Shown piece by piece: positions 1 through 26,616 of a stretch of 36,886 nucleotides of DNA. The position numbers were made by a program, and so were the translations under genes. Numbering within the stretch: the stretch's first letter is position 1; the number at the start of each line of letters is the position of its first letter. The notes beneath the pieces are model-generated. The model was not told the DNA's origin and did no database searches. It saw nothing but the letters and a program-made list of their open reading frames with translations. Source of the DNA: Gemmatimonadota bacterium (GTDB taxonomy: Bacteria > Gemmatimonadota > Gemmatimonadetes > Gemmatimonadales > Gemmatimonadaceae); contig DAHUXM010000029.1 in assembly GCA_027307165.1 (NCBI GenBank), positions 1-36,886 of the forward strand. Direction: 5' to 3'.

Positions 1-312
1 CGCTTTCGCGGGAATGACGCGTGGTTAACGCCGCCCCCACACCATGGATTCCCGCTTTCGCGGGAATGACGCGTGGTTAACGCCGCCCCCACACCATGGA
101 TTCCCGCGTTCGCGGGAATGACGCGTGGTTAACGCCGCCCCCACACCATGGATTCCCGCTTTCGCGGGAATGACGCGTGGTTAACGCCGCCCCCACACCA
201 TGGATTCCCGCGTTCACTGGAATGACGCGTCGCTAACGCCGCCCCAACACTGTGGATTCCCGCTTTCGCGGGAATGACGAAGGCCCCAATGGATTCCCGC
301 TTTCGCGGGAAC
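1..312. repeat. 52-bp tandem array of dRS3-like palindromes
   Basis: Seven palindromic cores of the form ATTCCC-N8-GGGAAT are seen. The first is truncated by the left edge; the others start at 48, 100, 152, 204, 256 and 293. Spacing is 52 bp until the last step, which is 37 bp. The core at 204 is degenerate in its right arm, and the last core ends GGGAAC. Each core is followed by GACGCGT and a segment matching the last codons and stop region of gmhA. The array continues left of the window. The core formula is that of the neisserial dRS3 repeat; any relationship by descent is not shown. On RNA the palindromes could fold and act as the gmhA transcript end. Confidence 0.93.
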
Positions 313-321
313 GACGCGTCG

Positions 322-906
322 CTATCGCCGCCCCAACACCGCCGCGTCGATCTCGGCGCACCACGCGTGCAGCAGCATCAGATGCACCTCCTGAATGTGC
401 GCCGTGACACTGCTCGGGACCGCGAGGACATGATCGGCACTGCATCCAACCAGTCCGCGCTCGCCGGTGAGCGCAATCGTTATCGCGCCTTTCTTTCCTG
501 CCATGGCCAGCCCGCGAACGACGTTCTCGGACGAGCCACTGGTGGTGATGCCGAGCGCGACGTCCCCGGTGCCCGCGAGTCCCTCGATCTGGCGCTCGTA
601 CAATGCGCCGTAACCGAAGTCATTGGCTATGCACGTGACCGATCCGACGTCGCCGCCGAGTGCGATGGCAGCGTAGGGGCGACGGGTCTCCTTGAAGCGG
701 CCGATGAGCTCGCCCGCCATGTGACTCGCCTGAGTCGCGGAGCCGCCGTTTCCGAAGCAGAGAATCTTCTTTCCGCCCAGAACCGCTGCTACCAGCGCGT
801 CACCTGCCGCGCCGGCCGCGTCCGCGAGGATCGTTGCGCTTGCCTGCACCGTGCGGATGCTTTCCGCGAAATGGGCGGCGATCATGTTGCGGCTTTCTGT
901 CGTCAC
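322..906 (-). CDS. gmhA: phosphoheptose isomerase (GmhA-type SIS protein)
   Basis: The product should convert sedoheptulose 7-phosphate to D-glycero-D-manno-heptose 7-phosphate, the first step of ADP-heptose synthesis for LPS core, in the cytoplasm. It is 194 aa, the usual GmhA length. The sugar-phosphate loop GNGGSA lies at residues 52-57, a metal/active-site region HMAGEL at 62-67, STSG-like TTSGSS at 121-126, and the C-terminal helix IQEVHLMLLH at 171-180 keeps the conserved histidines. The start is GTG at 906; an in-frame ATG at 885 is the alternative. Both lie inside the upstream helicase gene, and the N-terminal helix aligns with known GmhA proteins, so the overlap cannot be avoided. 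The last codons (AVLGRR, stop TAG) fall in the first unit of the neighbouring repeat array. No other heptose gene is present in the window. Confidence 0.93.
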   Translation of the reverse strand: MTTESRNMIAAHFAESIRTVQASATILADAAGAAGDALVAAVLGGKKILCFGNGGSATQASHMAGELIGRFKETRRPYAAIALGGDVGSVTCIANDFGYGALYERQIEGLAGTGDVALGITTSGSSENVVRGLAMAGKKGAITIALTGERGLVGCSADHVLAVPSSVTAHIQEVHLMLLHAWCAEIDAAVLGRR

Positions 907-3463
907 GTTTTCTCTCTTGTGCGATCTCGTCCTGCGACCACGGTCGGTCGAGAAGCTCCTGAAGCTCGTCCAATGTATCGGCCTTCACGGCACCCCGCTG
1001 CCCGCGCACGACGCTGAATCGGAGCGGACGGTCCAGCACCGGCAGCTCGGCCTCGGTGAGCGTGCGCGCTATCTTTTCCGGCAACCTCAGGCGCGCGACG
1101 CCCGTGCGCGATCCATCGGCATTCTCCTCGACGTCGTAATCGATCCACGCCTCGCGATCGCGCACCAGAACCATGTCGGGCAACAGCGACAGTCGCGCGC
1201 GTTCTTCCGGCGACACGAATTCGTCCGGATCGACCGTCAGCCTGGCGTTGCGAAACTCCTCGACAGAATTCACATCCGCGAGCTGATTTTCGTACAGCGC
1301 CGTCAGCTCGTCGAATCCCAGCCGTGGCGTTGCGCCACCCGATCGTCGATACGCCTCACGCACTGCGTTTATCGCTGCGTGGTTGCGTTTGACCGATACC
1401 TGCCGAGCCTCCTCGCGCGCGGCTGCCTGTGCGAGGATGTGGCGCGCCTCGGCAGCCAGCTCGGGCGGAAACTCGCGCACGGGCTCGATCTCGCGGTCGA
1501 GCTCGAATCCGAAATATTCCACGCGGCTGAACAGCACCAGCTGGTCGTGCTTGCGGCGCGCATCGTACATCAGCTGCGGCTTGCTGCGCGTGGCGTACTT
1601 CCGGATGAGACTGTCCGGGATCTGCGTCCCCTCGATTCCGGCGCGCGGCTCGCCATTCTTCCCTGCGAAGTAGCGCAGACTGCCGGCAATGGCGCCCCAG
1701 CTCCCGCACACACTCGTCTTGGAGACGCGCGCATTGCCTCCGTCGCGCGTCTGCTCGTCGATCACGAGATCGAACGGCATCGTGCGCGCCAACAGCTCGG
1801 CGAATTGCTTGTAGGTGTGATCGCGCGCGAATGGCAGCTTGGCCGGCAGCGGCATCCCGAGACTGCGATACACACTGGCCAGTCCGAGTGCGGCGTCCTC
1901 GATCGACTTCACGAGCACGCCGCGCCGCTCGGCCCATTCCAGCAGCGACTCGTCGAACTGGTGCCTCGGGAGGCCGTACACCTCGCCTGTGAAGCCGCAT
2001 TTGGACAAGGCTTCGGCGTACACGTTATATGCAGTGAGATGATCGCTTCCCGGCACGAGGAGTCCCTCGAGATCGCGCTCCTCGCGCGTCATGCGATGCA
2101 GCGACTCGATGCCGCTGATGACGGCGACACATGGAATGAGATCGTCGTCGGCATTCACGAGCAGCTCCGCCCACGGACGATCCACAGGCAGAGCTTCGAC
2201 CGACTTTCCGTAAGTCGTCAGCTTGCCGTTCTCTACTATTCCGCGATCATCGAGCAGCGCCAGCGCCTTGCGGTACGAGACGCGATCGAGGGGAACCGGA
2301 AGATCCAGCGCATCCGCGCGCACTCCGAGTGCCGCACACGTGAGCGCAACGCGCTCTGAATCACCGGCGAGCTGAAACTCGGGCGCAGTCGGTTGCAGCG
2401 ACTTGAAGTCAATTGCGCGATCGCTCAGTATGAACACGCGCCCGCCATCAACACGCCCGTGTACGCGCCCCGCCATCTGCAATATCTCGTTGCTGCCGAG
2501 GTGGAGCTTACTGAGCACGTTCTTGCCGCGCTCGATAATGTTGGTGAAGCGAGTATCGTCGATCACGACGGTATCCAGTCCGCGCACGTTGAGTGCGCTC
2601 TGGCCCGCAGCCGTCATCGCGAGCACGTACGGTTTCTTCTCCGTTCCTTCGAGGAACGGGCGAATCACGCGGATCGGCTCACCGCCGTGGTAGAACGCAG
2701 TATTGATCCGTGGAAACGCCGCGTGCACCGTCTCGGCCGCCTGCTCGACACCAGCGCGCGTGGGAAGAAACACTCCAACGCCTCGCCGTTCCTTGAACAC
2801 CGCGCGCAGAAACTTCTCGTCCAGGAATTCGAGCGGGTCTCTGTTGATGACCTTGACCGTCGCCGCCTTGGCAGGATCGAATGCGCTGCTCTCGATCACC
2901 GAAGCGGAGCCGAGGTACTCGGCGTAGAAGGAAGGATCGACCGTCGCGGAGAGCCAGATGTAGCGGCATCCGACGCGTTTGCCGAGCGCGAGGCACAGCT
3001 CCAGCTCGGCGGAGGTCTGGTGGATCTCGTCGACGATCAGCGTGTCGGTGGCGCGAATGTCGTCGTCCTGGAACCAGCGGCGGGCGATGCCGGTGGTGAC
3101 GATTATGACGTTCCACGTCGGCGTTTCCGGAGTCGCCTCGCGCTCGCGGTTAACGACGCCGACGCGGAGATCTTTCGTCTTGAGGATCGTCTCGGCGATC
3201 GGCCGGATCGAGAGCGTCTTGCCGGTTCCCGTTCCGGCAACGATTCCGAACCCCGCGCCGCTCGCGGCCAGTTGCTGGATCTCCGCACCGTGCTCGCGCT
3301 CGAGCACTGTCTCCAGATGGAGCGCCAGCGCCAGCTCGATCGTCTCGCAGGCCGCGCGCGTGGGTGCGATGACGATCACCCGCCCATTGGGCGGCTCGGC
3401 AGCCACGAACGCTTCGTGGTCCGGCGGCAGGTAGCGGTCATGGACCGCGCGCGGAGAGGTCAC
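800..3463 (-). CDS. DEAH-like superfamily 2 helicase (HrpA/HrpB-like)
   Basis: This is an 887-aa predicted ATP-dependent nucleic-acid helicase. Walker A (AGTGTGKT) is at 76-83, the Walker B box reads DEIH at 145-148 in place of DEAH, and motif III is SAT at 172-174. The second RecA-like domain contains VFLPTR near 231 and a motif VI of the form QMAGRVHGR at 329-337, where the family usually has QRxGRAGR. A long unclassified C-terminal half follows, ending in an Arg/Gly-rich basic tail of about 35 residues that is encoded entirely in the overlap with gmhA. A stretch resembling motif Ia (VIAPTRAAC, about 31-39) lies before Walker A, which is unusual. The start is GTG at 3463, 33 bp after bioB, so co-transcription with the biotin operon is likely. 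Whether it acts on RNA or DNA cannot be told. Confidence 0.85.
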   Translation of the reverse strand: MTSPRAVHDRYLPPDHEAFVAAEPPNGRVIVIAPTRAACETIELALALHLETVLEREHGAEIQQLAASGAGFGIVAGTGTGKTLSIRPIAETILKTKDLRVGVVNREREATPETPTWNVIIVTTGIARRWFQDDDIRATDTLIVDEIHQTSAELELCLALGKRVGCRYIWLSATVDPSFYAEYLGSASVIESSAFDPAKAATVKVINRDPLEFLDEKFLRAVFKERRGVGVFLPTRAGVEQAAETVHAAFPRINTAFYHGGEPIRVIRPFLEGTEKKPYVLAMTAAGQSALNVRGLDTVVIDDTRFTNIIERGKNVLSKLHLGSNEILQMAGRVHGRVDGGRVFILSDRAIDFKSLQPTAPEFQLAGDSERVALTCAALGVRADALDLPVPLDRVSYRKALALLDDRGIVENGKLTTYGKSVEALPVDRPWAELLVNADDDLIPCVAVISGIESLHRMTREERDLEGLLVPGSDHLTAYNVYAEALSKCGFTGEVYGLPRHQFDESLLEWAERRGVLVKSIEDAALGLASVYRSLGMPLPAKLPFARDHTYKQFAELLARTMPFDLVIDEQTRDGGNARVSKTSVCGSWGAIAGSLRYFAGKNGEPRAGIEGTQIPDSLIRKYATRSKPQLMYDARRKHDQLVLFSRVEYFGFELDREIEPVREFPPELAAEARHILAQAAAREEARQVSVKRNHAAINAVREAYRRSGGATPRLGFDELTALYENQLADVNSVEEFRNARLTVDPDEFVSPEERARLSLLPDMVLVRDREAWIDYDVEENADGSRTGVARLRLPEKIARTLTEAELPVLDRPLRFSVVRGQRGAVKADTLDELQELLDRPWSQDEIAQERKRDDRKPQHDRRPFRGKHPHGAGKRNDPRGRGRRGR

Positions 3464-16902: not shown

Positions 16903-17006
16903 CGTCATTCCCGCGAACGCGGGAATCCATCTGCTGCCGACCAGCGTCCTGCCGTCATCGCATCCAGAGATCGATAACTTGGATTCCCGCTTTCGCGGGA
17001 ATGACG
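16903..17006 (+). repeat. 104-bp composite palindromic element, copy A
   Basis: Inverted dRS3-like ends (CGTCATTCCCGCG... and ...CGCGGGAATGACG) flank a spacer of about 50 bp that contains GAGATCGATAAC. It occupies the gap between the convergent pseudopilin and DEAD-box helicase genes. By hand alignment it matches the reverse complement of copy C at 96 of 104 positions and copy B at 82 of 104. It encodes nothing and may serve as a bidirectional transcript end. Confidence 0.93.
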
Positions 17007-18231: not shown

Positions 18232-19081
18232 TTAGCCCCTTGATTGCTTGAGTTACCAGGTCCGGGGCCTCCTCTGGCACCACATGGCCGCAGCCATCGA
18301 TCACGGTCAGAGAGGCGTGCGGCAGCACCTCCACGTACCGTCGTACCCATCGCCGGATCACAAGATTGTCGTTCCGGCCATCCATTATCGCCGTCGGTGC
18401 AGAAATGGTTCCAAAGCCGCGGTCGGTTCCGGCGCTCCACTCGAATCGGTGCAGCAGGTCCCACATGGCCCGCACGAATCCGGGGAACTGGCTCGGCGCC
18501 CAGTACTCATCGATATCCTGCGCGGTGGGGCGATACAGACTCCCGTAGACCACGCTGAAGACGGCCGCGATCATGCATCTATGCAGCAGCCGCGGCAGGA
18601 CCGGCGCGACCGGGCGCGGGGTGAGCGTGCGGAGAATCCTGAGCTCCCACTCTGTGCCGAATCCTGCCGGCGCCAGCAGCGCGAGGGCCGTGACGCGGTC
18701 CGGTGCGAGCACCGCCGCCCGCGCGCAGATCGGGCCCCCCATCGAATGCCCCACAAGTATCGCGCGCCCGATCCCGAGCGAATCCATCGCCGACAGAACA
18801 CATTCAACCTGCGCATCGAGCGTGTAGAGACGCGCGTCGTCCGGCTTGTCGGAAAGGCCGTGACCGGGCAGGTCGATCGCGATCGCGCGCATTCCCGCAG
18901 CAGCCAGCAACGGCATCAACCTGCGGAACGAATAGACGGAGCACGCCCATCCATGCACGCAGATCACCACATCGGCGGCGTTCGCATCGCCGGTAGCGAT
19001 CGCACGAATCGTCGTCGCCCCCGTCTTCAGTGCGAGCGTGTGGTACGAGGTGGTGTAGCGCGAATCACCCGCCGGAAACAT
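18218..19081 (-). CDS. alpha/beta-hydrolase
   Basis: A 287-aa alpha/beta-hydrolase fold protein. The oxyanion region is HGWACS, the nucleophile elbow GHSMGG, the acid probably in MDGRNDN, and the histidine in GCGHVVPEE. It belongs to the broad family of esterases and C-C hydrolases; the substrate is unknown. ATG 19081 follows GGAG closely and comes 27 bp after the upstream stop; the frame is open to 19276 but would overlap the upstream gene with unlikely sequence. BioH is a member of the same fold, but the gene is far from the bio operon and nothing specific supports that name. Confidence 0.87.
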   Translation of the reverse strand: MFPAGDSRYTTSYHTLALKTGATTIRAIATGDANAADVVICVHGWACSVYSFRRLMPLLAAAGMRAIAIDLPGHGLSDKPDDARLYTLDAQVECVLSAMDSLGIGRAILVGHSMGGPICARAAVLAPDRVTALALLAPAGFGTEWELRILRTLTPRPVAPVLPRLLHRCMIAAVFSVVYGSLYRPTAQDIDEYWAPSQFPGFVRAMWDLLHRFEWSAGTDRGFGTISAPTAIMDGRNDNLVIRRWVRRYVEVLPHASLTVIDGCGHVVPEEAPDLVTQAIKGLIGYI

Positions 19082-20241: not shown

Positions 20242-20414
20242 ACGCGCTCACGAATTGGGGTTTGAGGGTCAGATGCATCCGCGCCTCGAACGTTCCGGCC
20301 GGTTAGCGCCCATATGCGTCCCGCGCGGCAATTATAGCGCCTTTTTCTGCAAATGCCAGGGGGTAGCATGCTATGTTCTTTACCGACAACGACTTACAGG
20401 TTTTGCGAGAACAC

Positions 20415-20518
20415 CGTCATCCCCGCGAAAGCGGTGATCCATTCGGTGCCGACGAACTTCGTGCTATCTGCTCGCCTGTAGATCGATAACATGGATTCCC
20501 GCTTTCGCGGGAATGACG
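20415..20518 (+). repeat. 104-bp composite palindromic element, copy B
   Basis: It has the same length and layout as copies A and C. The right end is intact, with the core ATTCCCGCTTTCGCGGGAAT; the left end has decayed to CATCCCC...GGTGAT. GAGATCGATAAC is kept as TAGATCGATAAC. It lies 12 bp past the glycosidase stop, in the 289-bp gap before the unknown gene. The rest of that gap holds nothing I can identify. Confidence 0.9.
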
Positions 20519-26447: not shown

Positions 26448-26507
26448 CGTCATTCCCGCTGTAGGGCGCGGATGCATCCGCGCCTCGGGAATCCATGTTA
26501 TCGAGCT
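26448..26507 (-). repeat. partial element with expanded core loop
   Basis: It begins CGTCATTCCC and continues GGGAATCCATGTTATCGAG, like the left end of copy C. The 8-nt core loop is replaced by 29 nt (26458-26486), which include a perfect 20-bp palindrome (26465-26484, half-site GGCGCGGATG). It stands 10 bp past the lon stop and directly before copy C. Confidence 0.8.
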
Positions 26508-26512
26508 AAAGT

Positions 26513-26616
26513 CGTCATTCCCGCGAAAGCGGGAATCCATGTTATCGATCTCTGGATGCGATGATACCAGGAAGCTGATCGGCAACAGATGGATTCCCGC
26601 TTTCGCGGGAATGACG
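26513..26616 (-). repeat. 104-bp composite palindromic element, copy C
   Basis: Both dRS3-like ends are intact. Its reverse complement matches copy A at 96 of 104 positions by hand alignment, so it is inserted in the opposite orientation. It lies between the convergent lon and small secreted-protein genes. Confidence 0.94.

Follow-up and report, generated by a model that had tools for sequence, protein, structure and literature searches.

The intergenic mosaic elements of Neisseria consist of repeat units flanked by dRS3, with inverted dRS3-type repeats bracketing a conserved spacer. In the survey of Di Nocera et al. (2013; PMC3733652) dRS3 was equated with the CGTC-1 REPs, a family defined by a CGTC tag, an 8-bp stem starting with AT pairs, a 4-nt loop and a CCA tail. 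According to the same survey, neighbours in the same orientation are negligible for CGTC REPs, while clusters of tandem units that carry flanking DNA are known for REPs generally. Tandem clusters including flanking sequence were also described for the REPINs of Pseudomonas (Bertels and Rainey, 2011; PMC3116915). As to possible effects on genes, reduced translation is reported for E. coli REPs at a distance below 16 nt from a stop codon, in a passage of PMC12306157 that cites earlier work.

Here we describe a tandem array from a bacterium of the family Gemmatimonadaceae (genome G000), in which a palindrome of this kind is combined with the 3' end of a gmhA-like gene. The window, i.e., the whole stretch of DNA analyzed, comprises 36,886 nucleotides (DAHUXM010000029.1, hereafter contig C36). 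The main comparisons were made with a sister species (G002) and a more distant congener (G001).

Results

The gmhA-like gene occupies window positions 322-906 on the minus strand (stop codon 322-324) and encodes a SIS-domain protein of 194 amino acids. The best NCBIfam model for this protein is the phosphoheptose isomerase PRK13936, with a match below its curated cut-off; the named relatives retrieved with the protein are nearly all Gemmatimonadota MAGs, one record being from an unidentified bacterium. If the gene starts at the GTG codon at 906, a helicase-like ORF (800-3463, minus strand) overlaps it by about 107 nt; the true start may be an ATG located further inside the ORF.

A 52-bp period extends over window positions 1-279 (no strand assigned; 5.4 units visible), with 94% matches and a score of 495 in TRF, and is cut by the contig end at position 1. 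The unit consists of a 27-nt palindromic core, TGGATTCCCGCTTTCGCGGGAATGACG, and a tail of 24-25 nt that matches the end of gmhA, which bears out the preliminary description of the locus as a 52-bp array made of the gmhA 3' end and a dRS3-like core. The cores are located at 1-19 (partial), 45-71, 97-123, 149-175, 201-227, 253-279, and 290-316, and the copied tails at 20-43, 72-95, 124-147, 176-199, and 228-251; including the last core, which is followed by the gmhA end, the array spans positions 1-316. The copied stretch comprises 16 coding nucleotides of gmhA, the stop codon and 5 nt of the 3' flank, and its native counterpart, T0, lies at 317-340 (minus strand).

The tails form a nested series outward from the gene. 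The nearest copy, T1 (228-251, minus strand), is 22/24 identical to the native gene end, so that the near identity noticed earlier for the unit around 225-260 is real; with the independent gene end of G002 as the query T1 matches at 20/24, the maximum in 20,000 shuffles being 18. The next copy, T2 (176-199, minus strand; 20/24 to the gene end), recurs in identical form at 20-43, 72-95, and 124-147 and twice more on contig C33. T1 and T2 share one change that is absent from both T0 and G002; tail changes of this kind would be expected after one first duplication and a later amplification. The core at 201-227, GCGTTCACTGG (no strand assigned), which adjoins T1, the most gene-like copied tail, is degenerate and looks the oldest. 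Between the two gene-proximal cores, 253-279 (no strand assigned) and 290-316 (minus strand), which have the same orientation, there is no tail but a gap of about 10 nt. The latter core, with its 8-bp stem and GAAA loop, starts 9 nt past the gmhA stop codon.

The layout of the core, CGTC-ATTCCCGC-GAAA-GCGGGAAT-CCA, fits the CGTC-1 REP class. The CGTC motif at one end is unpaired, the predicted fold, ....((((((((....))))))))... (-13.6 kcal/mol), has an 8-bp stem beginning with A-T pairs and a 4-nt loop, and the 3-nt CCA tail is present in all exact cores listed; the term "dRS3-like" is thus in line with the survey that equates dRS3 with these REPs (PMC3733652). At up to 3 mismatches, G000 contains about 180 copies of the core, 93 forward and 87 reverse. 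Exact core palindromes number 139 in G000 and 24-50 in its congeners; another genus of the family has a single one, and 15 further genomes have none. The gmhA gene is not the source of the core, which is a genome-wide repeat.

The arrangement of the cores was characterized on a sample of 57 loci. Head-to-head dimers (HH, with CGTC outside) were found in 47 cases, 38 of them with exactly 50 nt between the arms; no TT dimers occurred among these 57 loci, and further cores in the same orientation were present at 18 of them. The window itself harbors three more CGTC-1 head-to-head dimers (16903-17006, 20413-20518, and 26513-26616) with the conserved 50-nt-type spacer, the left arm of the dimer at 20413 being degenerate. 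A second palindromic repeat, GGCGCGGATNNATCCGCGCC, lies inside the REP-arm loop (CGTCATTCCCGC-TGTAGGGCGCGGATGCATCCGCGCCTC-GGGAATCCA) at window positions 26449-26496 and also at loci L010, L015, and L130; its exact copies number 40 in G000, 53 in G002, and 18 and 5 in other congeners, with none in 5 more distant genomes. A CGTC-1 REP is expected to lack a transposase gene of its own between copies of the repeat, a REPIN with a RAYT to have a cognate gene flanked by its REP. Three matches to Y1_Tnp were detected in G000 (C25:319323, C23:17007, and C23:172320), none of them near the core positions listed, which cover part of the cores.

Beyond position 1 of the window, the array continues on another contig. 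Elsewhere in the genome, the array unit occurs only on contig C33, at its right end (18914-19038 of 19038); here, two further complete units and an incomplete third core stand beside a gene whose identity as ispH was confirmed. Since ispH and gmhA are adjacent in both G002 and G001, the ends of C33 and C36 represent two ends of one array between these genes; the possibility that the C33 match is a second, unrelated locus with the 52-bp unit was accordingly rejected. The partial cores at the C33 end and at window positions 1-19 differ in the loop, and therefore at least 10 cores and at least 7 copied tails exist, these figures being a lower bound of the array size. Just before the first core on C33 stands GATCGATAACA, which in the dimers forms the conserved right-hand end of the 50-nt spacer (33/50 identity with the L010 spacer). 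This indicates that a head-to-head dimer was the origin of the gmhA array, which developed from its right arm, the left arm being gone. Near the ispH start, upstream of this gene, there is another palindrome, TTCGAACGACCGTTCGA (L002, about 1340-1365), conserved in G002 and loosely in G001, which looks like the operator of a putative regulator.

Neither congener, each species being represented by one genome, has an array at this place. The end of the G002 gene, CGCCGCTATCGCCGCCCCAGCACC (22/24 to T0), codes for VLGRR*, as does that of G000, the two proteins being 95% identical; the gmhA of G001 (80% protein identity) ends with VLGNR* at the same position. Since the array-free G002 has the same gene end, the tail is native to gmhA, and gmhA is its donor, in agreement with the initial suggestion that the array grew from the gene terminus together with an adjacent repeat. 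The 16-nt heart of the tail (up to 1 mismatch) is found across the G000 genome only at gmhA and in its array, at the C33 and C36 ends. The preliminary description held that occurrence of the 52-bp unit at many unrelated loci would mean that gmhA had picked it up; this is true of the core, but not of the tail or of the 52-bp unit, both of which are confined to the gmhA array. Hence, the core stems from a genome-wide repeat and the tail from gmhA. The reverse direction, from the array into the gene, appears not tenable in the light of these comparisons. AATGACG, the last 7 nt of the core, sits directly before the gmhA tail in G002, and the REP therefore probably predates the G000/G002 split, having expanded in one lineage and shrunk in the other. 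It may thus be that G002 once had an array and lost it, and such a loss would leave the identity of the donor unaffected.

Capture of flanks at REP loci was assessed by a comparison of two 9-nt stretches, one from between the last two core heads and the other from outside the last head, at a threshold of 7/9. The spacer between cores recurs in the outer flank at 8 of 63 locus sides (expected number 0.37; at most 3 in 2,000 shuffles), one of the eight being the C33 end of the gmhA array itself. A universal rule of flank capture was rejected, as 55 of the 63 sides are without it; flank capture is a recurring outcome at REP loci. At locus L022, G002 has the core and AGCCCTACAGCG, i.e., one core arm and the flank, and G000 has an extra core and AGCCCAACAGCG, a 36-bp tandem duplicate including 12 bp of the flank; the sister genome polarizes this duplication. 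A similar case of 27 bp was found at L134. The G002 counterparts of the REP dimers of G000 (L171, L178, L167, L189, and others) often consist of a single symmetric palindrome, CGTCATTCCCGC..GCGGGAATGACG, or of a short remnant, as though a deletion between the arms had collapsed the dimer. Another REP array, with a 35-bp period, at least 4 cores and the spacer CGCGCAAC, stands on contig C25 at its right end (L006/L013); it also ends the contig, so that assembly breaks may mark long REP arrays. On contig C21, near 86-190 (L148), the two flanks of a REP dimer form a long inverted repeat (tggttcggagctaggtagagcgc / gcgctctacctagctccgaacca).

Read as RNA in the direction of gmhA, the core hairpin (-13.6 kcal/mol) has a z-score of -3.6; for two units, the fold is better than that of every one of 200 shuffles (z -4.6). 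Neither the array nor the intergenic region of G002 yielded a site in the scans for intrinsic terminators and sigma-70 promoters, and an Rfam search on window positions 1-1000 gave no match.

Discussion

We suppose that the end of gmhA and the adjacent REP core were duplicated in tandem and that the resulting unit was then amplified, and we assign to this explanation as a whole a probability of roughly 0.88. The starting point would be a CGTC-1 REP, the right arm of a head-to-head dimer, that directly followed the stop codon of gmhA. This core would have been duplicated in tandem together with the adjacent 24 nt of the gmhA end, with the gene left intact; judging by the sequence, the first junction may plausibly have formed at the AACA microhomology shared by the gmhA end and the first core at its left edge. 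The 52-bp unit would then have multiplied to 7 or more copies, and the most likely agent is replication slippage or unequal recombination between repeats that form hairpins.

The opposite course of events, in which a pre-existing 52-bp repeat was inserted and became the last codons and the stop codon of gmhA, would be in keeping with the mobile-looking, genome-wide character of the core and with the fact that REPs elsewhere are known to give stop codons to neighboring genes (PMC3733652). It is nevertheless very improbable, considering that the array-free G002 has the same gmhA end (22/24 nt; VLGRR*), that the gene of G001 ends at the same position, and that the tail is absent from all other REP loci. 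An assembly artefact, namely a collapsed or chimeric repeat, comes to mind because the array stands exactly at two contig ends. However, the unit and its orientation agree at the two ends, which are flanked by ispH and gmhA, adjacent in two congeners, and the units differ by distinct substitutions; moreover, an artefact would sooner shorten an array than create gene-derived tails, which makes this explanation hardly credible.

The regularity of the palindromic repeats and the constant spacer length are reminiscent of CRISPR; yet the spacers are near-identical copies of the gmhA end and not unique sequences, and the repeat is dispersed at scores of loci, so that a CRISPR-like array has practically no chance of being the right interpretation. 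The array might also be a selected regulatory element, its tandem REP hairpins terminating or stabilizing the gmhA mRNA or uncoupling gmhA from ispH, with the copy number as a tuning knob. The stable core hairpin (8-bp stem, GAAA loop) and the two-unit fold (z -4.6) speak in favor of such a role, as does the first hairpin, which begins 9 nt after the stop codon and thus within the 16 nt for which reduced translation is reported in E. coli (PMC12306157, citing earlier work). Against it, the array has no site resembling an intrinsic terminator, the congeners do without the array, the copied tails have drifted, and similar arrays occur at unrelated loci; on balance, we regard selection for regulation as unlikely.

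No evidence of selection on the array was found in the sequences compared, and our guess is that tandem duplication and amplification left it mostly as a by-product of repeat instability. Still, with lowered translation reported for E. coli REPs near stop codons, gmhA may be affected: by analogy, the gene-proximal hairpin might slow down ribosomes at termination or stand in the way of 3' exonucleases, thereby modulating gmhA, to which further copies of the unit would probably add little. Effects on gmhA expression and variation in copy number seem plausible.

Like the intergenic mosaic elements of Neisseria, the loci described here have inverted dRS3-type repeats around a conserved spacer; unlike in those elements, the spacer is about 50 nt long and belongs largely to one family, and no large mosaic arrays of different units occur in the sampled REP loci. 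With the CGTC-1 REPs the repeats share the CGTC tag, the stem, the loop, the CCA tail, the head-to-head dimers, and the location in intergenic regions and next to gene ends. The differences from the CGTC-1 REPs surveyed by Di Nocera et al. (2013; PMC3733652), in whose text the name Gemmatimonadota does not occur, are the Gemmatimonadota host and the same-orientation neighbors at 18 of 57 sampled loci. As in the tandem REPIN clusters of Pseudomonas (PMC3116915), the units consist of a REP and adjacent non-REP DNA; in contrast to these clusters, the unit of the gmhA array contains a single REP arm instead of a whole dimer, and the captured flank is coding sequence with a stop codon, whose donor could be identified from a relative lacking the array. 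Searching the literature for REP arrays that had captured a gene end yielded nothing relevant. Since tandem REP units with flanking DNA are known, we view the gmhA array as a new and well-documented instance of an established process, unusual in that coding sequence and a stop codon were copied; the present analysis adds the captured coding end with its stop codon, the identified donor, the frequent same-orientation CGTC cores, and the Gemmatimonadota host. Such repeats have apparently not been described before from soil-bacterial Gemmatimonadota.

A much broader, genus-wide reading would regard REP arms as general seeds through which the host DNA beside them, coding ends and stop codons included, is time and again copied into short tandem arrays; the clusters would then be fossil records of the flank at the time of expansion, and the arrays might tune the expression of the source gene. 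We put this forward tentatively and consider it rather doubtful.

For the annotation of the genome, the REP array explains the assembly break at this point, and the ORFs that start or end in these repeats, such as the one giving ispH an extended start, are probably spurious. In general, the gmhA locus provides a bacterial tandem array whose donor, direction and order of events can be read from the sequence. It also extends the CGTC-1 REPs to a genus of Gemmatimonadota, in which they are numerous and, with 139 exact palindromes in this genome against 24-50 in its congeners, recently amplified.
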